Assembly: GCF_002210425.1 (NCBI RefSeq)
Contig: NZ_MWQK01000003.1
Coordinates: forward strand, 310,001-374,000
Source of the DNA: Fibrobacter sp. UWB2
GTDB taxonomy: Bacteria; Fibrobacterota; Fibrobacteria; Fibrobacterales; Fibrobacteraceae
Direction of reading: 5' to 3'
DNA: 64,000 bases
Positions 2,444 to 61,214 of the stretch are shown here, in pieces. The notes beneath the pieces are model-generated. The model searched no databases and was not told where the DNA came from. It saw nothing but the letters and a program-made list of their open reading frames with translations. The position numbers and the translations under genes are program-made. Positions within the stretch are counted from its first letter, which is position 1, and every line of letters starts with the position of its first letter.

Positions 2444-2454
2444 AAATTAAGCCC

Positions 2455-2527
2455 TAGATCCTTCGACTCCGTTACGCTCCGCTCAGGATGACACGAGTGG
2501 ATCCTATCGCTTCGCTCCAGGATGACA
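2455..2527. repeat. Palindromic extragenic repeat inside the hsdM-hsdS gap
   Basis: Two adjacent imperfect hairpins of the form GATCCT...AGGATGACA fill most of the gap between hsdM and hsdS. They end in the same ATGACA as the other palindromes of this window but have a different stem. No T-run follows, so they are more likely a REP-like insertion transcribed within the operon than a terminator. Confidence 0.7.
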
Positions 2528-42991: not shown

Positions 42992-43630
42992 TTATGGCAT
43001 TACACATCTTACGGATCGATAGTCAGCCTTCGCGAACGAATTTAAACTCGCCGCATCACTGCTGAACGACAAGAATAAATAGAATGCATTCGATTCTGGA
43101 TTTTCAGAATCTTCGGTCGCGCTCCAGAAATACGCGTAACCGCCGATGCCATCGAACTTGCCGCCAGAAATTGTGCCGTCATCTGCTTTCGAGATTGCGC
43201 CGCGATAGCCCGCCGGGAGAGCATTGAATCCGAATTCATCCGTGCCGTTACCTTTTTTGAACCAGCCATCGCGAGATTTTAATTTTGCGCCAGTTTCATT
43301 CGAGACAACGCCGGGTTCGCCATCATGAGACTGCGCGAGGATTTGCGCAAAATCTTCATTCGTCGGGAGGCGCCAGCCATCAGGGCAAACTGTTTTCGCC
43401 TCCGCCCATGTATAAAGCCGCCCCAACCGTTTGCAATTGCGAGAATCACCATCCGGACAAGCACTCCCCTCTGTTGCATAATTCAAATTCTCCGCCATCC
43501 ATGTCTGCTCGCCAATTTTCACGACACCATAAGACTGCCCGTCACGCGAATCCGTGAAAGACTCGGAACAAGCGGAGAAGAGAAAAGCAAACGCAGCAAT
43601 AGCGAAAGAGGAATGGAGAGTGAAACGCAT
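42992..43630 (-). CDS. FISUMP-domain lipoprotein (Fibrobacter major paralogous domain)
   Basis: A 212-residue lipoprotein (lipobox LFSAC, Cys21). The mature part has the Fibrobacter succinogenes major paralogous domain (TIGR02145): DGQSYGVVKIGEQTWMAEN, then CPDGDSRNC, a WAEAKTVCPDGWRLPTNEDF segment, YFWSATEDSENPESNAF and a final SVRCVMP. Such domains are very numerous in Fibrobacter and resemble Pfam DUF-type lectin or formylglycine-like folds; function is not settled. It is the last ordinary gene before the defence island. Confidence 0.92.
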   Translation of the reverse strand: MRFTLHSSFAIAAFAFLFSACSESFTDSRDGQSYGVVKIGEQTWMAENLNYATEGSACPDGDSRNCKRLGRLYTWAEAKTVCPDGWRLPTNEDFAQILAQSHDGEPGVVSNETGAKLKSRDGWFKKGNGTDEFGFNALPAGYRGAISKADDGTISGGKFDGIGGYAYFWSATEDSENPESNAFYLFLSFSSDAASLNSFAKADYRSVRCVMP

Positions 43631-43745
43631 AGGGAGAATTTAAAAAAAATCATTGCGAGTTAGATATTTTTGCTTTTATCACTACGATGAACCATTTCAA
43701 ATACATTGACAAACACTTTTGTAAGCGGTCCCATAATGCTATTTA

Positions 43746-44765
43746 TCAAACAACCCGCTTAACAGTGTATGCCAAATTCAACAGATTCACGCCCACAACG
43801 CGCTCGTGCAAACTCTCATCCATTTCATTAAAACCGCGGTCTATGAATTCTTTTCGCCATTTCTGCAGACCATTGTACCATGATGGACGACAACACGAAT
43901 TTTGCGATTTTTGAAGACAAAACAAAACCGCAATATCTAGAAGCCGCTTATTCTTATATCTTTTTACGCTTTCAATAAATTTTTGAACATTGGTATCGTT
44001 GTCCGCTGTATAAGTCAGAGCCCAAAAGCTTTTGTTATTGGCATCTATTCCCAAAGTCAATCCTATTAATGGAGCTATACTTTTCATATCTTCTTGAAAC
44101 AGCACTATCTTTTTATCAATAGTATATGCAGGAACCCAACCTCCAGTACACATCACAGGAGCCATTACATCAAAGCTAAAAACAATAGCCTTGACATCTT
44201 TATTTGCGTTTTTCGTAGAAAACGCTTTCTCGCACACACTTATTTCTTTTTTCAAGTCGTTTAAGGCTATGACATCTCTTTCTTTCGTCGTCTCCACCAT
44301 ATCATATAAAAGATTTTTGTCAGCACCATCACTAGAAAGAATTTTCTCTAAAAATTCGATGGATGTCTTTTTATGAAAATATTCATAGCTCATCGCCCTA
44401 TAATGCAACTGAAGAACCACTTCATCGTCAAAAATTGTTATCGGTTTATCGATTCTATTAAAAAGTTGCGTATCGTGGTGATTACAAAAGCCTTCAAACG
44501 TAGAAGCTTTTTTAATTGTCCATGGTTCAAAAGATGTTTTTACAGAGCCTTCACTTTCATCCATTAAATGAAAGCATTTAGAAATACTACCATTCCAAAC
44601 ACAGACTTTGTCACTTTCAGCTATAAGCTTTAACTGTTCCGACCTTGCAATAGAATGCGATGAAATTGGACCACCCGAACAATTTGCTGCATCAAAACTA
44701 TGCGCAATACAGGTCTGGTTCGCCTTAATTTTCTGATCTAATTCTTCAAGTTCTTTTCTTGTCAC
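43746..44765 (-). CDS. Unrecognised 339-residue Cys/His-rich protein after BREX
   Basis: An AT-rich gene of 339 residues. The N-terminus contains spaced Cys and His residues resembling a zinc-bound treble-clef or HNH-like fold (CIAHSF at residue 19, SSHSIARSEQLKLI near 35, VCVWNG, then FCNHHDTQLF near 93). The C-terminal half is helical and ends with Cys-rich segments (FCLQKSQNSCC). It begins 33 bases after the 176-residue gene and ends the minus-strand island. A nuclease role is possible from the motif spacing but unproved. No toxin-antitoxin or BREX-core family fits. Confidence 0.6.
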   Translation of the reverse strand: MTRKELEELDQKIKANQTCIAHSFDAANCSGGPISSHSIARSEQLKLIAESDKVCVWNGSISKCFHLMDESEGSVKTSFEPWTIKKASTFEGFCNHHDTQLFNRIDKPITIFDDEVVLQLHYRAMSYEYFHKKTSIEFLEKILSSDGADKNLLYDMVETTKERDVIALNDLKKEISVCEKAFSTKNANKDVKAIVFSFDVMAPVMCTGGWVPAYTIDKKIVLFQEDMKSIAPLIGLTLGIDANNKSFWALTYTADNDTNVQKFIESVKRYKNKRLLDIAVLFCLQKSQNSCCRPSWYNGLQKWRKEFIDRGFNEMDESLHERVVGVNLLNLAYTVKRVV

Positions 44766-44798
44766 TTTCTTTCCTTAAAATTCAACACAACTTTTTAA

Positions 44799-45329
44799 TC
44801 ATTTGGAAAAAAATCCCTCTTTAAACACAAGCGCAAATGAATATCCCAATCCAAAACCATATTTTTTATCTTCAATAAATTGAGGCCCAATCGAACAGCC
44901 TGTACCTAATTGCATTGTTGAATAACCATAAGGAACAGCCTCCATCCACCCCAGTCTCTTATAAACATCAAAAGCTAACACACTCAACGGATTCAGAACT
45001 ATATATACGCATTGGTTTGGTTTTGGGTCTGAAGGGAAAGCCAATCCCGTAACCTCTTCAAATAGCATAACTAATTGCGCTCTAGTCGGACGCGTATCAA
45101 ACAATGCGTCCCACAAACATTTAATCGCATCATCATGCTCTTTTAATACGGCATAAATTATTTCATCCAATTTTTCCTGTTTTTTTTCAGCATCCGCCGC
45201 AATTGCTGCGGATACGAACGGCACATAAGAACCAATTGCGTTACATATAAAATGAAGCGTAGTAACACTTTTTGCAGAAGTAAACGCATTTACAATTTGG
45301 TTTAATTTATCCGCTGTTTCATCGGCCAT
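44799..45329 (-). CDS. Unrecognised 176-residue AT-rich protein after brxL
   Basis: A 176-residue protein; the ATG at 45329 has AGGAAAAA upstream and starts MADETADKLNQI, while the frame is open for 16 more residues upstream without a better site. A hydrophobic stretch near the middle (FICNAIGSYVPFVSAAIAA, about 29-47) may insert in a membrane. The C-terminal part ends in a Phe/Gly-rich tail (YGFGLGYSFALVFKEGFF). No family recognised. It follows brxL on the same strand, separated by 104 bases with a palindrome and a promoter candidate, and precedes the 339-residue gene by 33 bases. Confidence 0.65.
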   Translation of the reverse strand: MADETADKLNQIVNAFTSAKSVTTLHFICNAIGSYVPFVSAAIAADAEKKQEKLDEIIYAVLKEHDDAIKCLWDALFDTRPTRAQLVMLFEEVTGLAFPSDPKPNQCVYIVLNPLSVLAFDVYKRLGWMEAVPYGYSTMQLGTGCSIGPQFIEDKKYGFGLGYSFALVFKEGFFSK

Positions 45330-45343
45330 ATTTTTCCTCATTT

Positions 45344-45371
45344 TGTATAAAATCACAATTCTCGTATTCAA
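45344..45371 (-). promoter_or_regulatory. Promoter candidate for the two genes after brxL
   Basis: On the minus strand TTGAAT (45371-45366) and TATACA (45349-45344) are spaced by 16 bases. It would give a leader of only about 8 bases for the gene starting at 45329. Similarity to sigma-70 elements is fair only. Confidence 0.4.
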
Positions 45372-45376
45372 TAACA

Positions 45377-45401
45377 CAGGTAAAATAACTTATTTTACCT
45401 G
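45377..45401. promoter_or_regulatory. Perfect 10-bp inverted repeat between brxL and the accessory genes
   Basis: CAGGTAAAAT and ATTTTACCTG enclose AACTT, immediately upstream of the promoter candidate. No T-run follows, so an operator or activator site fits better than a terminator; a brxL terminator without U-tract cannot be excluded. Confidence 0.45.
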
Positions 45402-45433
45402 CATTTGCTACAAAGTAAGAAAAGAATAACTTT

Positions 45434-47488
45434 TTACTCCACGCCCAGAGCCTTAAACACGGCATCTTCGGCGGAGTTATAGAAAATGAGGTTGAAACTT
45501 CCGATGAGTTCAGACGGCACGCTTCCCAAGTCGGGTGCAGATGTAATTGGCAGCAGCACTTTTTTCGCTCCGCTGTCAAGGCATACCTGCAAGGCGTTCG
45601 CCAAGTTTTCAACTTTCATCAATGTACCGCTCATGCTGATGTCGCCAAGTACAGCGAGCAACCCCAGAGTCGGCTTATCCAAGGCAATGGAGCAGAGCGC
45701 AACCAATGACGGCAAAGCCAAAGTTGCCGTCATGCCGATACCCTGCAAATCTTGATAGTTGATAATGTAGTCCTTGGTCGTCGTGCTGATGGAACCGCTT
45801 ATGCGATTTCCGTTAGCCTTCAAGAAATTGAAAGCCGCAGCCGACGATTCCTTGGCATCGCGATCGTTTCCAAGTCCTGTGCGGTCGAATTTTCCATTGC
45901 CGGGAAGCATCTGGCTTTCCAGGCGGAATACGCCAATCATTCCGGACTTTCCCGGGCTTATGGTATAGACCTGCCCTGGGCTGCATACGCCATCGGGAAT
46001 GAGCTTGCCTCCGCCCTGTTCCGGGACTGAGACGTAATGCTCTTCAAATGTTTCGTTGTCGATGTACGAGAAATTCACGTCATAGAATTCCATGCCGCCC
46101 AATTTCTTGAGTTGTTCCTTGACGCGCCTACGCATTTCCAACGCGAACCTGAGAATTTCTTCGACATCGCTCTTTTCAAATTCGCCGTTCGGATAAACTA
46201 GCTTTATCAAGCCATCAACGGTTCTGCGGACAGCGATAGTATCGCGCTGGTTCAGATTTTTGCCTAGATGGAAATAACGGTCCAATGCATCGCCGTATTG
46301 TTCCTTGCGCAATTCACGCACAAATGCGGCGAGATAATCGGTAATAAAGCCGTAATCGCCAGTAAAATGCTCTGGACGGAACTTCGGAATTTCCCAGCCA
46401 GGAATATAACAGTGTATTCTGTCGAGGAATGCCGTATCTGTTCCCATTTCAGGTGGGAACGGATCGAACAGGCTCGATGTTTTCAGCAACACATCGACGC
46501 TTTGGTTGATGTTTCCCACAAACACCATGGACGCACTCGCAGCCTTTTCTTCCTTGCCGCGAGCGAAAGAACCCGATGCCATGTAGTCTTTCATTATCTG
46601 GACGCCGTCTTTATCCTTGAAGTTGATTCCGGCAACTTCATCAAAGGCGACGCAATCCCACAAGCCGACAAGCCCTACCGTCTTTCGGCCCATGTTGTAG
46701 AACAAATTTGCGACAGTCGTCTGGCCGCCAGAAACAAGAATACTGTTCGGCGAAATTTCTTTGTAGATATGGCTCTTGCCTGTGCTTCGCGGGCCCAATT
46801 CGCAAAGGTTGTAGTTGTTTTCGACAAGCGGAATCATTCGCGCCATCAGGAGCCACTTTTCACGCGGTTTCAATGAATCGGGTTCCATTCCGGTAGAACG
46901 GAGCATTACGTCTATCCACTCTTCCTTGGTAAACGCCTTGCGGCCGTTCTTGAGTTCGCCTATATCGACGCTCGGCATCTGGATAGGAGTCAGTTTACGG
47001 ACATGAATGGGCGATTCTCCACGTTCTTCTTCAATAAATTCGTATTCAAGCTGGACAATGCACCAGATACCTCCGCAAAGCAGGCGGTCGTACTTTTGCG
47101 GATATTCGTCCGGCATTATGATGTCGCGCAATCCGAGGTTCGAAAATTCGGAATGGTAGCGGTCATCACGAGTATTCAACGCGACAGAAATCTTGTCGAT
47201 GACGGTGTAGGACCCCTTTGTACGGAGAAGGGAAAGAATCTTCTGCGATTCGTCGGGACGAACAAAATTATCGGAGAGGATTTTCTTGACCTGCTGCACG
47301 CCCTGTTCAATCACCGATTCGTCATCGGAACTGCAGTACTGGCCCAGAAGAAATTCCAGCACGTAAACCGGAACGTTCGCACCTTCCTTTATTTTTTTTG
47401 TCAGGTCCTTGCGGACAATCTTCCCTGCGAAATTCTCGCGGAGTTTCGCCTTTATGGTTTCACGTTCGTCATTCATTTCGTTTTCCAT
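45434..47488 (-). CDS. brxL: BREX AAA+ protein BrxL (Lon-related)
   Basis: The 684-residue BrxL is a AAA+ ATPase with a Lon-like C-terminal domain, the effector that closes BREX type 1 operons. The Walker A motif is GPRSTGKS (232-239) and Walker B is CVAFDE (279-284), followed by the NINQS segment and an arginine-rich region around 340-380. The Lon-like region has DISMSGTLMKVENLANALQ near the end (about 610-630). I do not see a clear Ser of a Ser-Lys pair in GIGMTATLALP, in line with reports that BrxL acts as a DNA-binding AAA+ machine without protease activity. The start is 11 bases after the pglZ stop. Confidence 0.95.
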   Translation of the reverse strand: MENEMNDERETIKAKLRENFAGKIVRKDLTKKIKEGANVPVYVLEFLLGQYCSSDDESVIEQGVQQVKKILSDNFVRPDESQKILSLLRTKGSYTVIDKISVALNTRDDRYHSEFSNLGLRDIIMPDEYPQKYDRLLCGGIWCIVQLEYEFIEEERGESPIHVRKLTPIQMPSVDIGELKNGRKAFTKEEWIDVMLRSTGMEPDSLKPREKWLLMARMIPLVENNYNLCELGPRSTGKSHIYKEISPNSILVSGGQTTVANLFYNMGRKTVGLVGLWDCVAFDEVAGINFKDKDGVQIMKDYMASGSFARGKEEKAASASMVFVGNINQSVDVLLKTSSLFDPFPPEMGTDTAFLDRIHCYIPGWEIPKFRPEHFTGDYGFITDYLAAFVRELRKEQYGDALDRYFHLGKNLNQRDTIAVRRTVDGLIKLVYPNGEFEKSDVEEILRFALEMRRRVKEQLKKLGGMEFYDVNFSYIDNETFEEHYVSVPEQGGGKLIPDGVCSPGQVYTISPGKSGMIGVFRLESQMLPGNGKFDRTGLGNDRDAKESSAAAFNFLKANGNRISGSISTTTKDYIINYQDLQGIGMTATLALPSLVALCSIALDKPTLGLLAVLGDISMSGTLMKVENLANALQVCLDSGAKKVLLPITSAPDLGSVPSELIGSFNLIFYNSAEDAVFKALGVE

Positions 47489-47499
47489 ACATCAGCCCG

Positions 47500-50091
47500 C
47501 TATGCAAAAAAGTTGAAGTCGTCCGTTGCAAAAGGAATGTCTATCTGGAATGAAATTTTATTGATTTCCAGTCCGCTATCGTCAGCAATGACCAAGTAAT
47601 AAACATCCGTATTGCTGTATTTCCCCTGCTTCAGGTTGAACCTAATCTTGAACGGTTTCTGCTTGTCTTCTTCGGTCTTCTTGTCTGCAATAATGCGTCT
47701 CGGCTCACAAATCTTGTTGCCGATTTCATCGGTAAAATACACTTGGTATTCGGCCTTCTCGCGATTATCCGAAACAAGCGTTTCCTGGAAGAAGTCCAGA
47801 TTGAAAATAAGGTTGCTCACCTTGCGGCCCGTGGAAAGCAATCCTATTGTCACGGGCTTTGTTTCGTACTTGGAGCGGTTCTGCAAGAGTTCCTTGTTGT
47901 CGCCACGGAGGAAATAGCATTCCACCACCGGCACGACCATTTCTTGCAGGCTTATGCCGCCATGGACAAAATTCCCGTCGTTGCCACGCATCTTGATTCG
48001 TGTATTTTCGCGCGGAGCAAACGCATCCATTTCATCGTTGTAAAGGAATTTCACCGGCATCAGGTATTCCGGCGTGGAACCCTTCTGCATAATGGCATAG
48101 CGGCGGCCATATTCAATATCTTGGGAACTGTCGGTGGTCTTGTCCACCTTTTCGTCTTCTGTCAGAGCGTCCCTTGTATAAAGGAAGCCGTGGTCCGCCG
48201 TGACATACACATTGGGCGCACGAAACATGTTAATTACACGCTTCATCAAGTCCATGATTTCGCGGACCGCAGTATCACAAGCCGTAAAGACATCGCCCTT
48301 ATGCCCCGCTTCGTCTATGGTATCGTGATAGATATACACGACATCCATGCCATTTAATCTCGGAGTCAATTCTTCGCGCTTTAGGCTCTTGAATTCACTA
48401 GCCTTGATAGCTACGCTCTTCGGGTTCGTCGCCTTCAAGACGGCTTCCCTGTTCCCGGCATCTGTCGCCATGCCGTCGGCAAGCACGACCAACCGCTCGG
48501 TCTTGTCGTTTCCCTTGAGTTCTACAGAAAGCTTTTTATGCGGGAGCAATGCCGCCATACCGAACTTGGTAATGGTCGGGAATACCGCCTGCATACTGTG
48601 CAATTTCACTTGGCACAGCGCCTCCTTTTTCAAGGATTCTTCGAGAGAAGTCGCAACACCGTAACGGAGCGCATCAGAAACAATCACAAACACGCGATTC
48701 TTTGCCGGGGCGACATAGCGGTCGTAAAAATCGCTCTGCCTTTCGATACCGTCAATGTAGCCAAGCTTTTGCAGCTGTTCCGCCGCAGAATTGCTCCAGT
48801 TAGTCCCCAGCTCACCCAGGAACCAGTTCTTGTACAAGTTTTCGACAAGTGTCGCGACACGCTTGAACAAGTCATCCAATTCAGCGTTATAGGAATATTT
48901 CGCATAACTCGCCATGAATTGGCGGTAACACGCATCCATCTTATAGTATTCACTGGTATAGGCCTCCCAGATGGCCTTGGGCTCTACGACATGGAAACCG
49001 TCCGAACAGTGCGCCATGTAAAAGTCCTGCATATTCGCCACCTGGAACAGAGCTTCGTACATCGGTTCCCACTCGTCAAACCAGGTCAGTGTCCGCCTGG
49101 CTTCTACCGTGCGCCGAATAAGTTCAGAATCAATGTTGCTGTCAGCAATATCAGCCATCAGCTTGCCGAGGACAACCTCGTTTACGCATGGGAGGCACTC
49201 GACACGTTGCAAATCATTTATATCGAGTTTTCGGAGAACTTCGGTAAGTTGGACATCTTTTTCTATCTCGAAAGCGATATCCTTTAATGAATCGACATCG
49301 TCCGAATGCATCCATTCCGTCACAATCTCGTGGCAGAGCTGCTGGTGCGCCTCCGAAATATACTGCTCCAGCCCGGCCATATTTTCGGCCCTCAAAACGT
49401 GGCTTGCCGCAGTGAGCAACAGTTGCGTTGCCAGATGGCGTAAATCCATGTCCGTTTCGCCGTAGCCCGCACCATTTGCAATCCGCGCAAAGTCAGCTTC
49501 GGCACCAAACTTGACCAAATCCGCATAGAACGAATTGTTCTTGGTGTCAAGGCCCGCAATCAGGACCTTTCGGAAGATATTCTTGGCATTGCAGGAATCC
49601 ATATTGCCTAAAGCGGCTATAATGGCAAGGATAATCTGCCCCGGAGAATTGAGCTTGACCTTGAGCCTAGACACTCGCTCGCGGCGTTCCTTGGCGGCAA
49701 AGAACTTGCGGTAACGCTTGACGATTTCGCGCAAGTTCGGCGAATCTTCGATATGCAGCTCTTCCATCCATATCGAAACCATGTCCGCACGGAATTCTTC
49801 GCTATAAAGCTCCACATCCATGAGCCAGTTGTCATCCGGGCGTTCATATGCAATCGGATTGTACAGCAGGATATCGCCTTCCGTATCATCGACGGCAATA
49901 ATCTTCTTGACCTCGAAGTTGTTGCTGCCGGTAAGCTTGATTACGCGAACAGCATCCAGCGACAAGCCGTCAACATCATTTTCGAATTCACGGTCGGCAT
50001 CGTACCACACGACAATACGGCGGCGGTAAAATTCCGGCAGAGGCTGGGCGAACTTCTTCTTCAGTTCCTGTACAATCTGTTCAATATCCAT
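47500..50091 (-). CDS. pglZ: BREX protein PglZ (alkaline phosphatase superfamily)
   Basis: The 863-residue PglZ is a core BREX component with an alkaline-phosphatase-like fold. Characteristic blocks are VIVSDALRYGVATSLEE (about residue 480) and YIYHDTIDEAGHKGD, then VYVTADHGFLYTRDAL (about 640) with the metal-binding Asp-His. Length is typical for the type 1 form. PglZ is needed for both modification and restriction in studied systems, in complex with BrxB and others. Upstream on the same strand is the COG2865 gene with a 185-base gap, the only large gap in the operon; brxL follows. Confidence 0.94.
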   Translation of the reverse strand: MDIEQIVQELKKKFAQPLPEFYRRRIVVWYDADREFENDVDGLSLDAVRVIKLTGSNNFEVKKIIAVDDTEGDILLYNPIAYERPDDNWLMDVELYSEEFRADMVSIWMEELHIEDSPNLREIVKRYRKFFAAKERRERVSRLKVKLNSPGQIILAIIAALGNMDSCNAKNIFRKVLIAGLDTKNNSFYADLVKFGAEADFARIANGAGYGETDMDLRHLATQLLLTAASHVLRAENMAGLEQYISEAHQQLCHEIVTEWMHSDDVDSLKDIAFEIEKDVQLTEVLRKLDINDLQRVECLPCVNEVVLGKLMADIADSNIDSELIRRTVEARRTLTWFDEWEPMYEALFQVANMQDFYMAHCSDGFHVVEPKAIWEAYTSEYYKMDACYRQFMASYAKYSYNAELDDLFKRVATLVENLYKNWFLGELGTNWSNSAAEQLQKLGYIDGIERQSDFYDRYVAPAKNRVFVIVSDALRYGVATSLEESLKKEALCQVKLHSMQAVFPTITKFGMAALLPHKKLSVELKGNDKTERLVVLADGMATDAGNREAVLKATNPKSVAIKASEFKSLKREELTPRLNGMDVVYIYHDTIDEAGHKGDVFTACDTAVREIMDLMKRVINMFRAPNVYVTADHGFLYTRDALTEDEKVDKTTDSSQDIEYGRRYAIMQKGSTPEYLMPVKFLYNDEMDAFAPRENTRIKMRGNDGNFVHGGISLQEMVVPVVECYFLRGDNKELLQNRSKYETKPVTIGLLSTGRKVSNLIFNLDFFQETLVSDNREKAEYQVYFTDEIGNKICEPRRIIADKKTEEDKQKPFKIRFNLKQGKYSNTDVYYLVIADDSGLEINKISFQIDIPFATDDFNFFA

Positions 50092-50103
50092 ATTTAAACT
50101 CTA

Positions 50104-50275
50104 AATTTAACTTGGGACAAAACTTGGGACAAATCGGTCGAATTTAGCCTTCTATCAAATAACCATCAAATAAAAAAGTGCCGTTTTTATGCAAATTTCG
50201 CCGTTTTTCCATTTTCTTGAGCCTTTTTATCAAATAACCGTCAAATAAGATTAACTTGGGACACGACTTGGGACA
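50104..50275. repeat. Paired short repeats in the COG2865-pglZ gap
   Basis: Four TTGGGACA units lie in two tandem pairs of 12-base period (50110-50132 and 50253-50275). Two near-identical TATCAAATAACC-TCAAATAA runs lie at 50153-50172 and 50229-50247. The central part repeats GCCGTTTTT. Directly after the stop of the COG2865 gene, the frame continues as LSQVVSQVNLI before a second stop. Confidence 0.7.
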
Positions 50276-50276
50276 G

Positions 50277-51878
50277 CTACTTATCAACCTTTTCAAAGCG
50301 AGCCAGCAATTCATAAGTTGAGTCCTTCACTTTGTACTGTTGATATCGGCTATTCGGCTTATCAGGAATAGTCATTTCAATCAAGCCCAAAGAGAGTAGC
50401 GGAGAAAGCAGTTTTTTTCTAAAACGGCTTCTGTTGGATTCGTGAGCGGCATGCATCAAATTTGATATCGGCTGAGGCCCTTCCATGGCATAAATCACAT
50501 CAACCATACCAGCAATATCTTCTATGGAACCTTTATCACTCAAAATGTAATTTTTCAAGCACGTCTGCAAACGCTCGCGGGTAAAGCGATTCTTATCCAA
50601 CAGATAGGCCTTATAAAACTCCGGATGACACGGAATGTCTATCAAGAAATAGGAACGTTCCTCATCCGTTTCTATTTTGGCTTTTGCCGAACCATTAACA
50701 GACAAAACCTTCTGTATCGTAGGAATTCCCGTGGCACGCCCTTCTGTCAAATCCAGTTCCTTGAGGAATTCACCGAGTCTTCGATTTCGATACCTTCTGG
50801 ACCGGAGAACTTTGGCCTCAAGAATCGCTTCTTTTGAAATAGACCTATCCGGTCCAGAATGACTCAAAATACTGATTTTATCCGGCTCTATCGTAATTTC
50901 GACAGGTTCACGCTCTTGATAGTCTCGATGATAAAGAGCATTAACCACAGCTTCTTCCAAAGCCTGATAAGGATAATTAAAATACCGGAGAGAAAGTTCG
51001 CTATCTTTTTGTTTGACTACAGCCTCCTTGACCACATTTGTTTTGAGATAAGTCAAGGAGTCCTGAATCATCTTGGGTACAGGACCTTCAATCGGAGGGA
51101 GTTCAATGATAGTGTCGGGATCCTCTTCGCGACCATTAGGGAAAATCACTATTTCAACTCTTGAAACAGGGAAAAATTTCTGGGGGTTTTCACAAAACAT
51201 CATGGCCGCAACATTTTTGATGGTTCGATTTTCTACAGGGCCATCAAAAAGGTTCATCTGTTCCAGAACCTCATTCATTTTGGCAGATTCGAAAGTAGCA
51301 CCAAGTTTACTATTCACTTTGCGAAGATAGTCATATACAAGAACTGGCGAAATATCGGAAACAGTTATATTTGCATTACCCCGTTCGTCAAAGGGAATGC
51401 GACTGGCCATATCCCTTAGTTCTACTAGGACTTCACCTTTAGCCTCAATAGAACTTGTTCCTGTTCGAACATAAAATGCCTTTGGGCACCCTTTACTTAC
51501 AGTTACATTCGTAGGAATTTCATACGGCCTATTTGCTCCCGATGGCACCCATATTGCAAGAACATATTTATCATCAACTTCTTCAACAGAAATGCGAGGC
51601 AAATAATAGGGATTAAATTTATTATTATAACCAACCATTTCCTTTTGAATAGAGTCCAATCTATCCCCGGAAATGCCCAATACAGGTCTCTTTGCAACGC
51701 CATTTTCCTCTTCAACGCCGACCAATATATATCCACCGCCAAGATTATCCAAATCATTGGCAAAGGCGCAAATAGAATGATAAATTGTATCAGGATTCCA
51801 ACCCGCCTTAAATTCTACACGGGGGCCCTCAATTTTCCGACGGTTCAACAAATCTTCTACATCTATTGGTAATGCCAT
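50277..51878 (-). CDS. AlbA_2/COG2865-type regulator or ATPase inside BREX
   Basis: A 533-residue protein inserted between pglX and pglZ. The N-terminal AlbA_2 (Schlafen-like) domain shows the VEFKAGWN motif near residue 21 and GGGYILVGVEE. A GHKL ATPase-like block ALEEAVVNALYHRDYQ lies near 310 with the Asn of the N-box. The C-terminus is winged-helix-like (MEGPQPISNLMHAAHESNRS). Proteins of this kind (COG2865) are predicted transcriptional regulators and occur widely near defence genes. It begins 9 bases after the pglX stop, so it belongs to the operon. Its stop is followed in frame by LSQVVSQV, a repeat typical of the C-terminal tails of this family, which hints at a shortened tail. Confidence 0.9.
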   Translation of the reverse strand: MALPIDVEDLLNRRKIEGPRVEFKAGWNPDTIYHSICAFANDLDNLGGGYILVGVEEENGVAKRPVLGISGDRLDSIQKEMVGYNNKFNPYYLPRISVEEVDDKYVLAIWVPSGANRPYEIPTNVTVSKGCPKAFYVRTGTSSIEAKGEVLVELRDMASRIPFDERGNANITVSDISPVLVYDYLRKVNSKLGATFESAKMNEVLEQMNLFDGPVENRTIKNVAAMMFCENPQKFFPVSRVEIVIFPNGREEDPDTIIELPPIEGPVPKMIQDSLTYLKTNVVKEAVVKQKDSELSLRYFNYPYQALEEAVVNALYHRDYQEREPVEITIEPDKISILSHSGPDRSISKEAILEAKVLRSRRYRNRRLGEFLKELDLTEGRATGIPTIQKVLSVNGSAKAKIETDEERSYFLIDIPCHPEFYKAYLLDKNRFTRERLQTCLKNYILSDKGSIEDIAGMVDVIYAMEGPQPISNLMHAAHESNRSRFRKKLLSPLLSLGLIEMTIPDKPNSRYQQYKVKDSTYELLARFEKVDK

Positions 51879-51887
51879 ACAACAAAC

Positions 51888-54800
51888 CTACTTAATTTTG
51901 GCCAGAACGTCCTTGAACTTGGCGTAGTTTACCTTTACTCCGTCATCGAGGTCGATGGGTATCATCTGGTCGGCGAGGTGGTGGATTTTTTCTTCGTAGG
52001 TGTGGAGTTCTTCTTTTTGGCCTGTCAGCTTGGCAAGTTGCTTTTTGAGGCGCACCTGTTCGTTAGAACTGATGACCTCGTTCAGGCGGGAATTGATACC
52101 GTCGATAGCGGTATCGTAGCGGCTCTGCTGTTCGTGAACATAGTCGGTGCGGATACGGGCGATGGTATCGGGCCTGTAGCGGTGCATATACACAAGACAC
52201 TTGAAGCCGTTCTTTTTGCCGCTGTCGAACAGCCAGTAGATGGGGCGCTTGCCCGAACCCGTAACCTGGTAGGTGTTGCAGTGGTCCTTGAAAAAGTCGT
52301 CCAAAAAGTACTTGCGGATGATTTCACGGGAAGAACCCTTGCCGCCCAGAGCGTTCGCGATGAACTGCAAGTTGTCTTCTAGGGTAGATTCGCCATAGAC
52401 GACCTTGACGAATTCAATGAAACGACCGACGATATCGTCTTCGAAGTATTCGTCGTCGCAAATCGGGATGATGTTGTCTGCATCAGCCTCGAAGGTCTTG
52501 TACTTGGAGGCGTCCCAGTCGCCGCCGGCGTAGGCAAGGCCAGGAACGTCGAGGCTGTAGCGGCCGAACATGCAACCCACGGCATAGCTGATAAGGCTCT
52601 TGATGTCGCGTTCAAGGTCCGCCTTGCGGACGGTCACGTCCTTGTCTTCGACATCGGGGGTAAGCTCGTCTTGCAAGCCGTAGATGTCGATAAAGATGCG
52701 GTTGAGTTCTTCTTCGTTGGCCTTGAGCGTGTTGAAACGAGTTTCGCATTCCTGCGCCCAGCGGTCATAACAATCCGCAATTAAAGCAGAAGGTGTTGAA
52801 GGTAACAGCGGATGCTTCGCGAAGTCCCAAGAGGTTTCAAAGGAGTCCCAGTCTGTTTTACATATTTGTATATTATTTTCAACCAAATTATCAACATTCT
52901 CTTTCTCATTCTTGTTCAATATCATCGGGACCCGAGACATTGGGCCCTCATGATAATCTAGTGTTGGCGAAAGAATCAACAACATACAGTCAATAACTTT
53001 AGTATTCGTCAAACCAAGTAAATATTTCAGATTGTTCGGATCCTTTAAAAAGCAGACTGACCCCTTACTTTCAAATAAAAAACCTTGCGGACTATACCGC
53101 ATTGATAATGCTTGGCCACCAAGAGATGACCAAGTAATGCCTTCTTTAAAATAAAATTGTGGATTACGAATGACAGAGCCATTAAAACTTTTCATTTCAA
53201 GTCCGTCATTTGCCCAATTTGCCAAGTAGTTATTGTTTCCATACCATCGACGAAAACCACCTCCTTTATTGCAAGGAATCCACTTTGCCTTATCAGGATT
53301 TGGCTGATCTAACGAACTTTTCAATGAAATTTTTTTCCAATCAGGTTCAAACCATAGCCGCAAGAATCTTGGATTATTGCCTGTAGCAAAACCTTGTTTT
53401 GGATAACCATAATCACCTATTAGCAAATTATTAAAAGCCGATATAACTTTTTCAGAAGCCCAATATGCATATGGACTCCCTGGAATACGTGTGAAATTTT
53501 CTTGCTGAGCAACATACCGGCATTGACCAGACAAAAATAAATCTTCTTTACTCTGTTGCGAATTTGCATTTGTCAATCTCAAAAACAGAGCATTATAATT
53601 AGAACTTACACTTTTCTTCAAAACAAATGAAGTCGTTTGGACTACTTCACCACCAATTTCCTCAAAAGCTCGGACACCCAAATGAGCCATGTTTATAACA
53701 TTACAATTCGATAACAGTAATTCTCTTAATTTCTTGAAACTTCCCAAAAACATCCATTGGTGTTGCGTTATCATCGCTTGCAAACCATCTTTTTTCAATA
53801 AATGTCCGCATTGTTCAATGAATACAGAAAATAAATCCGTTTTACTATTAGGGAAATTTTGAATAACATAATCAACAAGTTTTCCGCAGCAATCGCTAAC
53901 GGCTCTATATGGCGGATTGGTCACAACCACATCGTATTTCTGCGCCATGGTCTGTGCAATCTGCACAAAGGGCAAAAGCGTGTTGATGGCAGGCAACTGG
54001 TAGATGCTCGCATCCGTTCTGATTTCTTCGAATCGGGCATAGAGAGCCTCAAAATCCACGTTGGTCACATTCAATATGGAACCGTATTCCTTGGCATCGT
54101 GCAACTCGCTTACCAAACGGTCCATCGCCTTCGTCAATTTTTCGTCGCCGTTCTCGAAATACTCCACCAGGTTACGGTCAAACCCGTTGCTCTCCATGAT
54201 AGAATAGATATGGGGCTGGATTCCGCGATTCAGGAACCGGCTATCGTATTGCCTTGCCTTCATCATCACGGCAAAGTAGGCCAGCTGTGCCGCACGGTCA
54301 TCGATATCCAAACCGTATAGGTTGTTCTTCACGATGCTTGCCACCGCATCGGTCGCCGTGTAGCCATACGCCATGTAAATCTGCACCAGCACATCGAACA
54401 TATAAACGACAATGTGGCCGCTTCCCTCGCAAGGGTCAATGCAGCGTAAATCCTGCGGCTTTATCTTCGCGTATTCTACGCGTATTTTTGCAAGTTCCTC
54501 CTTTACGGAATCTTCCTGTTCGGCCTCGTCCAGGTAATACTTCCACTTGGGCTTGAGCAAGTCCGCATGCTGGGGGTGACCTTCGAGCCACAGGCGGCCA
54601 AGGCTGTTTTCCACCATGTATCGAACAATCCAGTCCGGAGTAAACAGCTGCGTTGCCGCAGGTATTTTTTCCTTGGTAATCTTGATGTTGTCGTCAAGGT
54701 CCTTGAAAACTTTCGCCTTGGGTTCCGTGTTGTAATACTGGTAAAGCCAACCAATAATCTGCACGGCGTCTTTCCAGTCCTCTTCGGGAATATCGTTCAC

Positions 54801-55361
54801 GAGCCTGCCCACGGCACTGTTTGGCTCCAGCAGGTAATCCGGGAAAAGCAGTTCCGTGTAGTCCGCAATCCTCTGGAACATGCCCGGCAACAGCTTGTTC
54901 AGTGCGTTGCACTGCGTTATCACCAGGTACTTGAAGAGTTCGCCGTCCTGGTCGTTTTCCTTGAACGCATAGACCTTTTGCATGTCGAGCCCATCCATCT
55001 CCAAGTTGATGGCCTCGGCCATAATCTGCGGCTTGAAGGCCCCGGCATCGTCGCTGAACACGCGAACATGGCTCGGCAGATAGTCGTTCACCTCCATAAA
55101 GCGGAGCGCACAAAAGCGGTTGAACCAGGTGTAGGCCACTTCTTCTATCACCTGCTCAAAACTCTCGCTGCGGATTTTCTGAATCAAGGCAGAACGCTGC
55201 TGTTTTTCGACATTCGTAAGCACGCGCCCATTCACCGTACTCGCGTTCGGGTCGCCCACGGAACCTTTCTCGATGCCATACTGCAAAGCCTTCTGGCTCA
55301 CGCGTGCAATCAGTTCGTTACGAGCCCAAATAGCGTAATTCTTAATAGCGTTCTTGTCCAT
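51888..55361 (-). CDS. pglX: BREX type 1 adenine methyltransferase PglX
   Basis: The 1,157-residue PglX methylates host DNA at a non-palindromic site and so marks self in BREX type 1. The SAM motif is DPCEGSGH (about residue 310) and the catalytic motif is NPPY (about residue 480) within VVVTNPPYRAVSDCC. The region from about 490 to 850 is encoded by markedly AT-rich DNA compared with the flanking parts, and probably holds the target-recognition domain; the C-terminal helical part is again GC-rich. It starts 14 bases after the brxC stop. The protein looks complete. The target site cannot be read from the sequence. Confidence 0.95.
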   Translation of the reverse strand: MDKNAIKNYAIWARNELIARVSQKALQYGIEKGSVGDPNASTVNGRVLTNVEKQQRSALIQKIRSESFEQVIEEVAYTWFNRFCALRFMEVNDYLPSHVRVFSDDAGAFKPQIMAEAINLEMDGLDMQKVYAFKENDQDGELFKYLVITQCNALNKLLPGMFQRIADYTELLFPDYLLEPNSAVGRLVNDIPEEDWKDAVQIIGWLYQYYNTEPKAKVFKDLDDNIKITKEKIPAATQLFTPDWIVRYMVENSLGRLWLEGHPQHADLLKPKWKYYLDEAEQEDSVKEELAKIRVEYAKIKPQDLRCIDPCEGSGHIVVYMFDVLVQIYMAYGYTATDAVASIVKNNLYGLDIDDRAAQLAYFAVMMKARQYDSRFLNRGIQPHIYSIMESNGFDRNLVEYFENGDEKLTKAMDRLVSELHDAKEYGSILNVTNVDFEALYARFEEIRTDASIYQLPAINTLLPFVQIAQTMAQKYDVVVTNPPYRAVSDCCGKLVDYVIQNFPNSKTDLFSVFIEQCGHLLKKDGLQAMITQHQWMFLGSFKKLRELLLSNCNVINMAHLGVRAFEEIGGEVVQTTSFVLKKSVSSNYNALFLRLTNANSQQSKEDLFLSGQCRYVAQQENFTRIPGSPYAYWASEKVISAFNNLLIGDYGYPKQGFATGNNPRFLRLWFEPDWKKISLKSSLDQPNPDKAKWIPCNKGGGFRRWYGNNNYLANWANDGLEMKSFNGSVIRNPQFYFKEGITWSSLGGQALSMRYSPQGFLFESKGSVCFLKDPNNLKYLLGLTNTKVIDCMLLILSPTLDYHEGPMSRVPMILNKNEKENVDNLVENNIQICKTDWDSFETSWDFAKHPLLPSTPSALIADCYDRWAQECETRFNTLKANEEELNRIFIDIYGLQDELTPDVEDKDVTVRKADLERDIKSLISYAVGCMFGRYSLDVPGLAYAGGDWDASKYKTFEADADNIIPICDDEYFEDDIVGRFIEFVKVVYGESTLEDNLQFIANALGGKGSSREIIRKYFLDDFFKDHCNTYQVTGSGKRPIYWLFDSGKKNGFKCLVYMHRYRPDTIARIRTDYVHEQQSRYDTAIDGINSRLNEVISSNEQVRLKKQLAKLTGQKEELHTYEEKIHHLADQMIPIDLDDGVKVNYAKFKDVLAKIK

Positions 55362-55375
55362 AGTACAATCAAATC

Positions 55376-58300
55376 CTAGTTCAGTTCAATTCCGTCGTTA
55401 CCTTTCAGCAAATCGAGCATCTGCTTGCGGATTTCGGCCACGTAGGCATCGATTTCGCTTTCGCTTTCGAGTCGCTTGGGGCGGAACACCTGCTGGCGAG
55501 ACACGCGCACATATTTTTTTTCGGTTTTCGGCGGTTCGCCACCTTCCGTCGTGGGGGCTGCAGCGGGTTTCAAAGCCTCTTCAATCCGCAAACGATAATC
55601 ATCCACACGAGACGTAATCTGGGGAATCAGGGAGTCAATCAAGGCGAGATTCTTGAGGGTTTCCACCTTTTGCTTGCGAGCATCCAGGAATATTTTCGCC
55701 TCGCTTACAAGGTGTGCCACCTTGCTATTGCCCTGGGCAGCGTCTTCAATCAGTTTCGCATTTTCGGCAATGGTGTTGAGCACGGCCATACGTTTTTCCT
55801 TGAGCATTTCGCTATGGGCCGTCTTTATGCGAGATATCAGTTCGTTCAGTTCGGGAATGCGCCCGTATGCATAGGGGCCGCTTGCCGGAATTTCAATAAT
55901 AGACTTGAGTTCTTCCATGGCGTGGCGGGCATCCGCATTTTCGGCGATGTAGTCCGCATCGTCTTTCAGGTCATCTGCAACCTTGACCGCGGAATCGAAC
56001 ACCGACACCTGACTATTGAAGAAGTTGACGACCTTCTCCATGTTTTCGCGGGAGTCCAGCAACTCTTCCTGTTTTTTCAGGAGACAATCTACCAGCGCGA
56101 TGTTGTCGGACTTTTGCGAAAGGATATCTTCCATCAAATCGCAAGCCTTGCTCACAACGCCCCGATCGGGGTAATTATGGCCGATGTAACGGTCTTTATA
56201 GCGGTCGTACAAATTTTTCTTGAGGTCGATATTGTCGATGATGAACTTCACGAGCCCATCTTCGTCGTTCGGGACCGACATGGCATGCATATAGTCGCGC
56301 AAGAACGCAACGGCATTCTTTATTTTCACGCCCGATACTGAAATGCGCTTGCTTACAACAGTCTTGCCTACTTCGCTCTTGCGGTGAAGCAGGTCCAGCT
56401 TTTGGGCAAGTTCGTCGGGCTGCACCGTGTTGCCCGCATATTTGATTGTCACCTTCTGCGCAGACACCAAAGTCGCAACAATCGCCGCGATGTCTATTTC
56501 GCGCCAACCGTAAGGCTTATCGCCATATTGACGCAAAATATCTGCCATGGAGACCGTCATCTTCTGGCGGTCCTTCATTTCGAGGAATTCCTCGACCTTC
56601 GCCACAGCCGCCGCGTTAGGGCAAGAACCTTCGAATGTCGGGTTTTCAAGAATAGAAAGCAAGTCCAAGTCGGAATCGTAATTGTGCTCAATCAGCCCAA
56701 GATGCCTATAGACATGGCCGACCAATACATCGAGCGCCTGGTTCAGTTTTTTCTTGGCATCTCCGGTGCATTCTATACGGTTGCCATCGACAAAGAAAAC
56801 GGCCTTTTCAATCGCTTCCGAAATATACTCCATCGCCTCCTGCTCAAGGCTTGCGGCAATGTCGCTCTGGCTGCGGATAATATCCTGCATGGATTTTGGC
56901 AGCTGGGTCACGTTGCGCTGCTTTATGTACTTGCGGATTTTAATCGCATTTTCAAGGCGGTTGTAGTAGTCGATATCGGCAAGCACTACCACTGCCCTGC
57001 CGCTAGACGAGCTCATCAAAATGTTGTCACGCTTCTCAAGCACATCTGTTGCAGCCGTCAGAATCTGCAACACCATGCCGCCGGACCCGTTCGAAATCGC
57101 CTGGTTATCGACAAAGCGGTCGAAATCGAAATCGTATTTGCCATTACCGTAGCGGAACTTGCGGATGTCGTATATCTGGTCGAAAATAATGGAACCGATT
57201 TTGCCTACGACATCAGAAGTATCCACGGGTGTCATCTTGATTTCTCGCTGGATATCCTGTTCCTCGTTCGTGAGGAAGTTGTAGGTCTCGCCCGTGCGAC
57301 CAATGTAGTTCTGCGAAAGCAGACGGTCAAGGCTCTTCTGCACCTCGTCACGCTTGGTAATTTTATCAAGCTGTATATTGTCCGCCATCAAGATGATGAT
57401 GTTATCGAGGTTCGCCTTCACGTCATCTACATAACGGATAAGGTATAGCAACTTAAGAACGTCAACATCTTGCGCCTCAATTCCATTGCCTTTTTCGGAT
57501 GCTTCCTGGCAACGTTCTATCACGCGACGGATATCGCTATTCAAGAAACTGCTAACCGTATCGTAGAACAGGTAGAACGGCGCAAGTGCAAATTCGTTTT
57601 CGTTCTGAATACGTTGAGCCGCCTCCTGGAACCCCGAAAGCATCGAACGTTCGCCACCCGCCAAGTGGGTGCCAGAATTTCCGTGCTTGCGAATTTCACC
57701 GAAGACCTTCTGCAAAAGCCTGAACTGGTATGGAACAAACGGGAAATTTCTTGCAAAATCTTCTGCCCCGGTGAATCCCTTGATATCAAGCACGCAATCC
57801 TTGAACGAGAACAGGTTTCGCAAAACAGAATCGTTCGTCTCGTAAATAGAGCGCAACGCTTCGGCTGCCTCGGGAGTCTTTTTCAGGATACGTTCCTGAA
57901 TGACTTCGTCTGCCGCACTGGACGACAGTGAAAGACGGGTCTTGAAACGCGCCTGGATTCGGGAGAATTCGTTTTCGCGAGCCTTGATGATTTCGTCAAT
58001 CGCCTCTTGCCCGGTGCATACCACCCAAACCTTGCCCTGACACTTGCTCCCGATTTCTTCGACAAGCGATTGCAAGTTCAAAAGCAAATCGGTATCCGCG
58101 CCCACATACTGGCCGACTTCATCGACCATAAAGAGCAGGCGGTAATCCTTGGGCTTTTGAGAAACATATTCCTGAATTTCTTTAACAAGTGCAGCGATGC
58201 TGAGCTCCGTTTCCGTCTTGTCGGTCACCCATTTTGACGCTTCGTCTTCGGACATGCCAAGAACCTGAGACATCGTTTGCACAACTGCCTTACGCTTGAA

Positions 58301-58906
58301 CGCAAGAGCCGACTTACGTGCAGAAACCCAATCCTTGCCTGCAATCTTTTCAAATGCGTCCCGGAACTGCTGCGTCTTGCCTTCGGATTCTATGTATTGT
58401 TCCAAGCGGGCAACTTTCAAGTCTTCGCCATAAAAGCCCAAGAAACTGTAGAACATCTTGGCAAAAACGCGCAAGACGGCAGTCCTGTCCTTGTTCGTAA
58501 AGCCTTCGACATCGATGTTGAAAAGAATCGCGTCGGTAGGGGCCTTTGATGCCCTGTCCATATCCATGAACGACGCCGGATCTTCCCACTTGCTACGGAA
58601 AACATCTACAGCCTTCTTGCCGCCAAACTCGACATTCGAAAGAATGAACGAAAGTATTTTCAAGAAATGAGATTTACCGGAACCGAAAAAGCCCGATATC
58701 CAGACGCCGATATTATCGGTCGGTTCGTTAAACGCATCGGCATAGGCCCCAAAGAACTTGGCAAAATGCTTGCGGAGTTCGCGGGTCACGACGTATTCTT
58801 CCAGTTCTTGGGCAAGAACTGCATCCGTCTTTTCGCCAACCTTGACAACACCACCAATGATTCGGTTGATATTGTCCCTGAACATGTCCCTGATAATCAT
58901 CGCCAT
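55376..58906 (-). CDS. brxC: BREX AAA+ ATPase BrxC
   Basis: A 1,176-residue AAA+ ATPase taken from the ATG at 58906 (MAMIIRDMF, 13 bases after the brxB stop); the frame is open for 18 more residues that overlap brxB. The N-terminal P-loop is GFFGSGKSHFLK (72-83). Walker B-like LLFMVDEVGQYVGAD lies near 265, and a large helical C-terminal region follows with coiled-coil stretches. BrxC (formerly PglY-like, DUF6079 class) is a core BREX component whose ATPase activity is needed for defence. The order brxA-brxB-brxC-pglX is standard for type 1. No interruption is visible. Confidence 0.95.
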   Translation of the reverse strand: MAMIIRDMFRDNINRIIGGVVKVGEKTDAVLAQELEEYVVTRELRKHFAKFFGAYADAFNEPTDNIGVWISGFFGSGKSHFLKILSFILSNVEFGGKKAVDVFRSKWEDPASFMDMDRASKAPTDAILFNIDVEGFTNKDRTAVLRVFAKMFYSFLGFYGEDLKVARLEQYIESEGKTQQFRDAFEKIAGKDWVSARKSALAFKRKAVVQTMSQVLGMSEDEASKWVTDKTETELSIAALVKEIQEYVSQKPKDYRLLFMVDEVGQYVGADTDLLLNLQSLVEEIGSKCQGKVWVVCTGQEAIDEIIKARENEFSRIQARFKTRLSLSSSAADEVIQERILKKTPEAAEALRSIYETNDSVLRNLFSFKDCVLDIKGFTGAEDFARNFPFVPYQFRLLQKVFGEIRKHGNSGTHLAGGERSMLSGFQEAAQRIQNENEFALAPFYLFYDTVSSFLNSDIRRVIERCQEASEKGNGIEAQDVDVLKLLYLIRYVDDVKANLDNIIILMADNIQLDKITKRDEVQKSLDRLLSQNYIGRTGETYNFLTNEEQDIQREIKMTPVDTSDVVGKIGSIIFDQIYDIRKFRYGNGKYDFDFDRFVDNQAISNGSGGMVLQILTAATDVLEKRDNILMSSSSGRAVVVLADIDYYNRLENAIKIRKYIKQRNVTQLPKSMQDIIRSQSDIAASLEQEAMEYISEAIEKAVFFVDGNRIECTGDAKKKLNQALDVLVGHVYRHLGLIEHNYDSDLDLLSILENPTFEGSCPNAAAVAKVEEFLEMKDRQKMTVSMADILRQYGDKPYGWREIDIAAIVATLVSAQKVTIKYAGNTVQPDELAQKLDLLHRKSEVGKTVVSKRISVSGVKIKNAVAFLRDYMHAMSVPNDEDGLVKFIIDNIDLKKNLYDRYKDRYIGHNYPDRGVVSKACDLMEDILSQKSDNIALVDCLLKKQEELLDSRENMEKVVNFFNSQVSVFDSAVKVADDLKDDADYIAENADARHAMEELKSIIEIPASGPYAYGRIPELNELISRIKTAHSEMLKEKRMAVLNTIAENAKLIEDAAQGNSKVAHLVSEAKIFLDARKQKVETLKNLALIDSLIPQITSRVDDYRLRIEEALKPAAAPTTEGGEPPKTEKKYVRVSRQQVFRPKRLESESEIDAYVAEIRKQMLDLLKGNDGIELN

Positions 58907-58919
58907 AAATTTTTCCCAA

Positions 58920-59477
58920 CTAAATGATATTGAACGCGCGGTAGTAGGAATTCGGTTCAAAACGGTTGAAAAGTTTCAAGTTGCGTCCGTCGAATTTTCC
59001 CGGATACATCACCACAACAGGAATGTCCGAAAATTTCGGCTGAATCGCTTCCAAAAGCGCATGCACCCGCATGAACGGATAAACTTCGCCTATACCCGTC
59101 AAGAGCAATACATCGCCTATCTTGTGATTATCGTATTGCATCTTTTGAACGAACATCTTGTTGTCAGCAGTACGTTGCAAGTTCTCGAGCATGTAATCGC
59201 GGCCATCTTCGGCTTCAATGCCTGCAATCTCATCCATAATTCCTTCGTCTTCACAAATAGAAAGGAATATGCGGTACAAGTTGCGTTCAATCAAGTTGCA
59301 TTTTACCGATGAGTCGGCAACCGTCTGAGCAACAAAGTGGCGAACTACCATTTCGTCTTCGGGTTCGTAACAGAAAATACTGATATTCACTTCGTTGCCA
59401 AGACCGCGCCCATGCAGGAAATCGTCATCTTGCAATTTAGTGCGTAGCCGGTCAAGCCTTTGCAAAATATCGTTCAT
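58920..59477 (-). CDS. brxB: BREX protein BrxB (DUF1788)
   Basis: The 185-residue BrxB is a small core protein with a P-loop-like fold without a Walker motif. The recognised family pattern is present: FCYEPEDEMVVRHFV near the N-terminus, a conserved VLLLTGIGEVYPFMRVHALL near residue 125, and a VVMYPGKFDG motif followed by RAFNII at the C-terminus. In other systems it binds PglZ. It starts 8 bases after brxA and ends 13 bases before brxC, in the usual order. Confidence 0.95.
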   Translation of the reverse strand: MNDILQRLDRLRTKLQDDDFLHGRGLGNEVNISIFCYEPEDEMVVRHFVAQTVADSSVKCNLIERNLYRIFLSICEDEGIMDEIAGIEAEDGRDYMLENLQRTADNKMFVQKMQYDNHKIGDVLLLTGIGEVYPFMRVHALLEAIQPKFSDIPVVVMYPGKFDGRNLKLFNRFEPNSYYRAFNII

Positions 59478-59485
59478 CTAATCAC

Positions 59486-60088
59486 CTACGAAAAACAGTT
59501 GAATGCAGGAAGAATATTCTTTTCGTCATTTGCACGAATTACATTTTCCAAATTCGGATACAAATAAACCGGTTCGAGTTTGCCTGCCCGTGGATTTTTC
59601 AAATAGCCATTTTCGACCAAGAGCCCAACCAGTACTCCTCGGATTTTTTTTGTCGAGGAATCGCTCCAAGACGCCACCGATTCATTCTGTTCTTTAAGAC
59701 GCATCAAATAATTCGCCGCAACTTTTGTATTCCACGAGAAATCCAAAGTCCTGAATTTTTCGCCAACAACAGTAACCATAAAATCCAGCACCAGCCGATG
59801 TTCCTTCATCAAAGCATACAGGCAAACCTGCTTAGCCTCTTCCACAGGGCCATGCGCCAATACTGAAACAAGATTAGAAGTTCCCAGACCGCCAGCACGG
59901 GCAACACAGGCCCGAGCCATACGCCGGACCGACTTTTCAGTCGGGTACTGGAACAAGTTCTTTTTTACGACAGAATCAACAACAGCAGTCTTTTCCATAC
60001 CCTTCTCCAAGAGACGGCACACCGTGCGCATCTCGTAGAAAAGAAAGGGTTCCCTGGTCAAGGAAGCTTTGTAAAGAACTGGGGCCAT
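59486..60088 (-). CDS. brxA: BREX protein BrxA (DUF1819)
   Basis: BrxA is a small DNA-binding helical protein, first in the BREX type 1 core. I use the ATG at 60088 (MAPVLYKASLTREPFLFYEM), giving 200 residues as in known BrxA; a longer frame starting at a TTG near 60181 overlaps the upstream gene and has no support. Family features include FLFYEMRTVCRLLEKG at the N-terminus, the conserved ALMKEHRLVLDFMV block and a C-terminal segment GKLEPVYLYPNLEN. An 82-base gap separates it from the DUF2971 gene upstream, so a BREX promoter may lie there. Confidence 0.9.
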   Translation of the reverse strand: MAPVLYKASLTREPFLFYEMRTVCRLLEKGMEKTAVVDSVVKKNLFQYPTEKSVRRMARACVARAGGLGTSNLVSVLAHGPVEEAKQVCLYALMKEHRLVLDFMVTVVGEKFRTLDFSWNTKVAANYLMRLKEQNESVASWSDSSTKKIRGVLVGLLVENGYLKNPRAGKLEPVYLYPNLENVIRANDEKNILPAFNCFS

Positions 60089-60170
60089 AGGGTATCGTTT
60101 AAATTTCAAAAGAACTGTTTCCAAATCTATAAATATTCCATAGAGAATATAAGTTTTATACAACTGAGCA

Positions 60171-61109: not shown

Positions 61110-61182
61110 TTCCTAGACACCATTTATTAGAATAACAAGTTATCGTTTTTTATTTCAATGAACGCAAATTTTGGTTCCCAAG

Positions 61183-61214
61183 CAAAAACGGGCATCATTC
61201 CACTCAGAATGCCC
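61183..61214 (-). terminator. Intrinsic terminator after the LysR gene
   Basis: On the minus strand a GGGCATTC...GAATGATGCCC hairpin with a two-base bulge is followed by GTTTTTGC. It begins 4 bases past the LysR stop. Confidence 0.7.

Follow-up and report, generated by a model that had tools for sequence, protein, structure and literature searches.

Auxiliary and backup nuclease effectors have been described beside BREX loci (PMC12839542), and P2-like phages and P4-like satellites carry anti-phage hotspots (PMC9122126). Because both are on record, the general kind of arrangement that we report here is already known. The locus lies in a 64,000-nucleotide stretch of the genome of Fibrobacter sp. 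UWB2 (the window; its genome is G000 in our comparisons), where two genes encoding proteins of 339 and 176 amino acids come after brxL, with which the core genes of a type 1 BREX operon end. Like the auxiliary nucleases of PMC12839542, the 339-aa gene is an extra gene near a BREX operon, but its family is not tied to BREX. A term search of that paper returned no mention of SEC-C or DUF3800. With the hotspots of PMC9122126 the family shares the character of a solo cargo gene, which is found in islands and at a variable position in P2-like prophages. The P2 hotspot adjoins the cos site, however, whereas the family gene lies between D and ogr, and SEC-C is not mentioned in the main text of that paper. 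Exactly the same slot behind brxL is occupied in a related genome, G056, by PDC-S51 (DUF3800), a library candidate of PADLOC whose sequence is unrelated to the cargo of the window.

On plasmids and P2-like prophages, proteins that carry the annotation 'SEC-C domain-containing' (PF02810) or 'YecA family' belong to the same family as the 339-aa protein, matching it over 80–90% of the length at 20–25% identity. They also share its invariant residues (C, C, H, GFC-x2-HD, R and N). The annotation, however, covers only a 19-residue motif, which the window copy does not have, and is silent on the remainder of the protein.

Results

The 176-aa gene is read on the minus strand from an ATG at 45329 to a stop at 44799; with the GTG at 45377 as the start, its product would have 192 aa. 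After a gap of 33 bases the 339-aa gene follows on the same strand, from a GTG at 44765, preceded by AAGGAAAG, to a stop at 43746. GC content is 0.35–0.38 over both genes and about 0.50 on either flank. Positions and GC profile agree with the original prediction, which had described two closely spaced genes of low GC. The 339-aa gene is a true coding gene under purifying selection, because its dN/dS against an 86% identical copy in genome G095 is 0.07 (dN 0.075, dS 1.02). Searches of Pfam, PADLOC, PHROG and NCBIfam gave no match of any weight for either protein, and the PADLOC 2.0 models gave none at E<0.01. Weak library matches to DUF7913, Annexin_2, a pilin-like entry and VgrG were judged to be chance. 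The earlier statement that the two proteins match no family holds for curated libraries but not in general, as relatives of the 339-aa protein are widespread.

We compared the region behind brxL (45434–47488, minus strand), which encodes a BrxL with a Lon_C domain, in related genomes. The locus of G056 is 96.4% identical to the window from pglZ through the brxL stop codon and an entire palindrome that follows it. Identity stops at window position 45362, 15 bases past the palindrome, and the cargo beyond is unrelated, consisting of the DUF3800 gene (PDC-S51, E=7e-98) and an ExoX-C gene. A third BREX locus, that of G068, is 73% identical to the window and has DUF4365 and CoiA_N-like genes in the slot. 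The 339-aa gene is absent from the post-brxL slots of both G056 and G068. Given these different contents in three related genomes, the position behind brxL is a cargo slot, and its contents vary even between near-identical BREX loci. The first cargo genes are AT-rich in all three (GC about 0.35–0.37), and low GC is limited to the cargo. We found brxL in 9 of 151 genomes and in none of the three other carriers of the 339-aa family (G043, G095 and G116). Two further genes were noted in and next to the operon: a Schlafen/AlbA_2 gene (PF04326, with a Fic-like C-terminal domain) at 50277–51878, between pglX and pglZ, and a DUF2971 gene (PF11185; weak PADLOC PDC-S31 matches) at 60171–61109, ahead of brxA at the start of the operon.

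BREX and its cargo form a defence island at 43672–61212, between ttcA with a FISUMP gene on one side and LysR/metE on the other. Its edges are drawn by homology to relatives, which ends at 43672 for G074 and at about 61212 for several others; the 339-aa gene lies 74 bases inside the left edge. In genomes with both flanks on one contig, the gap between them measures 0.85 kb in G050, an empty site holding the FISUMP gene only, and then 4.6 (G037), 9.2 (G052), 11.1 (G074), 12.9 (G001), 14.1 (G072), 16.9 (G046), 18.3 (window), 20.8 (G076), 21.2 (G044) and 23.0 kb (G004). The island proteins that we scanned include several type I methylases and specificity subunits, AbiLi-like proteins, and ATPases of the KAP, AAA_21 and NACHT-like kinds. 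Type I restriction genes are present in the islands of many relatives. This setting, a defence hotspot, speaks for the idea that both genes are defence cargo. The FISUMP-domain (PF09603) gene, lipoprotein-like and located at 42992–43630, anchors the left edge in almost every relative that we examined, the empty site among them. Separately, very low-GC genes (0.27–0.35), some of them without a Pfam match, occur inside or behind type I restriction operons of the hotspot (L098 4846–5787 and 7097–10362; L099 5852–10880; L101 6393–12974; L103; L105 4025–5767). An element of 40–42 bases at window positions 2453–2494 recurs twice near hsdS in L075 (15716–15757 and 16213–16254; 95–98% identical) and once in L072 (14656–14695), a dispersed repeat near restriction genes.

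The perfect inverted repeat that had been noticed upstream of the two genes is present at 45377–45401. It reads CAGGTAAAATAA-N-TTATTTTACCTG, with perfect 12-base arms separated by one base, and folds as a 15-pair RNA hairpin on the minus strand. None of 300 first-order simulations of the region with the same composition contained an equally good palindrome, and the whole 3.5-Mb genome holds no second copy, even with 3 mismatches allowed. An Rfam search returned a chance match only. Since the palindrome is shared with the G056 BREX locus, where other cargo follows, it belongs to the 3' end of brxL and the BREX transcription unit, and it is most simply read as an element at which the BREX transcript ends or is processed. 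It had been taken as the pair's own, but in G056 it lies ahead of unrelated genes, which also rules it out as an operator of the pair. As a classical terminator it is incomplete, the T-run behind the stem being absent. The proposed promoter, a TTGAAT-16-TATACA pair at 45344–45371 on the minus strand, does exist, yet it has 8 of 12 consensus bases and is unproven, and the region holds 2 promoter-like sites, whereas its shuffles average 5.9. In G068, another short inverted repeat, ACTATATCG...CGATATAGT, lies just after brxL (L091, about 4510–4620), hinting at a hairpin behind brxL as a recurring BREX feature.

The original prediction saw in the two genes the best local candidate for an undescribed two-gene defence module and had proposed a search for their co-occurrence. 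Among 201 genomes, the 339-aa gene was found in four, namely the window genome, G095 (86% identity), G043 (53%) and G116 (24%), and the 176-aa gene in three, the window genome, G006 (53%) and G047 (31%). The sole overlap is the window genome, and the pair thus occurs together in no other genome of the set, the very outcome that the original prediction had named as refuting the module. In G095, the relative lies behind type I hsdM and hsdS and two other genes, with neither BREX nor the 176-aa gene. The relative in G043 (L073 2236–3290) is split over two overlapping frames and looks broken or frameshifted.

Beyond these genomes, tblastn matched the 339-aa family to 28 plasmids, the majority of them from Pseudomonadota and Lactococcus, as well as to two Listeria phage records that are nearly identical to each other; a scan of viral contigs gave 50 loci. 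The family spans Pseudomonadota, Bacillota and Fibrobacterota. Matches occur in 92 of 5426 complete E. coli genomes (about 1.7%); in the commensal strain SCU-105 (WP_097365112.1) a P2-like prophage carries the gene between D and ogr, and a further strain has it in an island. In the Listeria record its neighbours are an OLD-type ATPase (OLD-TOPRIM) and a SMODS nucleotidyltransferase. Grouping of the members at 60% identity gave 28 clusters. A phage tyrosine integrase, a neighbour in six of them, was the sole one shared by more than three clusters, and no consistent partner was found. The family is a solo gene, often near attachment sites, and occupies variable spots of prophages, plasmids and islands with no obligate partner, as prophage or island cargo does. 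No BREX annotation was seen in the neighbourhoods of relatives that we inspected. Many members carry an extra N-terminal SEC-C motif (PF02810), through which alone the relatives match PADLOC 2.0; the window copy and several relatives (L017, L018, L024, L034) are without it. A literature search, with subscription journals and preprints mostly outside its scope, found nothing on SEC-C with anti-phage terms or on the family itself, and no phage-resistance phenotype for any member.

In an alignment of 37 members, C19, H37, F90, G92, F93, C94, H97, D98, F102, R123 and N289 are invariant, C29 is present in 36, and position 106 is always E or D. The window protein shares C19, H37, the conserved GFC-x2-HD motif, F102, R123 and N289 with the SEC-C-annotated zinc-site family over the shared full length. 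The Cys/His spacing had been thought to suggest a zinc-bound HNH-like fold. The metal-site part of this idea is supported by the conservation of C19, C29, H37, C94, H97 and D98. The three motifs named (CIAHSF, SSHSI and FCNHHD) contain the real site, but H22, the His of 'CIAHSF', is not conserved and not part of it. The HNH part is backed by neither profile nor fold comparison. An AlphaFold2 model (pLDDT 85, pTM 0.88) combines a metal-site domain with two long helices and, at the C-terminus, an alpha/beta part. In this predicted structure, which we examined for the beta-beta-alpha metal fold of HNH endonucleases, a strand with His37 is followed by a hairpin, C94xxH97 and a helix. The order of the putative metal residues resembles that of HNH endonucleases (PF01844, PF14279), with a Cys pair, a His after a strand, and Cys-x2-His at a helix start. 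However, the Cys spacing differs, the conserved DH...N motif is missing, and there is no Pfam match, structural match or profile-profile signal above shuffled controls. The hhalign comparison of the metal-site domain with HNH domains scored 7.4 at a probability of 0.07%; the 200 column-shuffled controls averaged 9.8, and 175 of them reached at least the same score. Pfam, NCBIfam and PHROGs gave no HNH match, and profile searches of the PDB returned only the SEC-C of SecA and YchJ, or chance. The structure search that the original prediction had also suggested started from a confident model and, with Foldseek against the PDB and a viral library, gave no match below E=0.001, so that neither a housekeeping fold nor HNH is indicated. 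Judged by its conserved residues, the 339-aa protein is a putative zinc-site protein and belongs, as a short form without SEC-C, to a mobile family that is widely distributed and uncharacterised.

The 176-aa family was found only in the genus Fibrobacter, in 3 of 168 genomes of the phylum, and has no relatives in the viral contigs, plasmids or phages searched. In all three genomes it lies behind a restriction or BREX system; in G006 and G047 the neighbourhood mixes defence genes, among them a type IIG-like restriction gene upstream of it. The G006 island is at the same site as that of the window, next to LysR/metE, and there the gene is directly behind a trypsin-like protease gene, whose Pfam trypsin match is weak (E=0.15). 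No protease gene was recognised beside the G047 relative. The protein has a borderline hydrophobic segment at residues 27–45, with a hydrophobic peak at the same place in all three relatives (Kyte-Doolittle 1.56–1.61). A single-sequence structure prediction was unusable (pLDDT 47). Because of the shared peak and the one trypsin-like neighbour, our best guess, a weak one, is that the 176-aa protein may be a small effector with a membrane-leaning segment.

Discussion

With moderate confidence, we read the locus as two independently acquired cargo genes in a variable slot behind brxL, at the edge of a defence island, the 339-aa one probably encoding a solo anti-phage or exclusion protein. What we observe is slot variation, a palindrome that is part of brxL, two genes that do not travel together, and a 339-aa family that is mobile and has no consistent partner. 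From this we infer that the 339-aa protein may fold around one zinc ion bound by C19, C29, C94 and H97; the remaining invariant polar residues, H37, D98, D/E106, R123 and N289, would then form an active site. Working alone inside the cell, it would counter phage or mobile DNA on entry, and a nuclease-like or abortive effector is its most likely nature. As a counterpoint, genes carried by prophages can have other uses as well, in phage biology, counter-defence or lysogenic conversion. A fuller proposal, which we consider possible rather than probable, is that the protein stands for a family of single-gene anti-phage systems that has so far gone undescribed. Its fold would as yet be absent from the PDB, and its zinc/catalytic signature would read C-C-H-C-H-D. 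The family would occur in at least three phyla, on prophages, plasmids and defence islands, in SEC-C-bearing and SEC-C-less forms, and serve as an interchangeable cassette behind BREX and restriction operons.

Other explanations can be set against these data. A genuine two-gene defence module, equipped with a promoter and an operator palindrome of its own, would fit the common strand, the 33-base gap, the shared low GC and the position of both genes within a defence island. It is already largely refuted, and we regard it as extremely improbable, since the pair is never together outside this genome, the palindrome recurs in a BREX locus with other cargo, and the 28 clusters of the 339-aa family reveal no consistent partner. 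The 339-aa protein might also be an auxiliary or backup effector that works with BREX, like the nucleases of PMC12839542. Its gene is among the cargo immediately after the BREX core genes, and PMC12839542 documents auxiliary nucleases, HNH enzymes among them, next to BREX. However, its nearest relatives lie behind type I restriction genes or alone, the inspected neighbourhoods of relatives showed no BREX annotation, and the two related BREX loci of G056 and G068 do without the gene, all of which makes such a partnership improbable.

It is also conceivable that the family is a prophage counter-defence or regulatory protein that aids its carrier, for example by blocking host restriction or tuning late gene expression. 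Its location in prophages, where one strain has it flanked by D and by ogr, the late activator gene, would be in keeping with this, as would the fact that regulators can be zinc-site proteins. We find it unlikely, because the family is not confined to prophages but is also found on plasmids and, in other phyla, in defence neighbourhoods, and its copies are not bound to one phage type. For the 176-aa gene, the adjacency of a trypsin-like gene in G006, the Lon_C domain of the Lon-like BrxL ahead of it here and the common hydrophobic peak could mean that it is the orphaned part of a protease-activated effector. This is very unlikely, given the weak trypsin match, the G047 relative with no recognised protease gene beside it, and the near-identical BrxL of G056 that has no 176-aa gene behind it. 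Independent cargo in a variable slot, with a probably solo 339-aa protein, thus remains the explanation that we prefer.

For Fibrobacter, the comparison defines a hotspot between ttcA and metE, a place to look for further unknown low-GC genes. The comparison also reveals a slot behind brxL whose contents are swapped, with the core operon and the hairpin at its end left intact. If the role that we infer for the 339-aa protein is true, a family now filed as 'SEC-C domain-containing' or 'YecA family' would be a candidate for a new stand-alone defence or exclusion gene.
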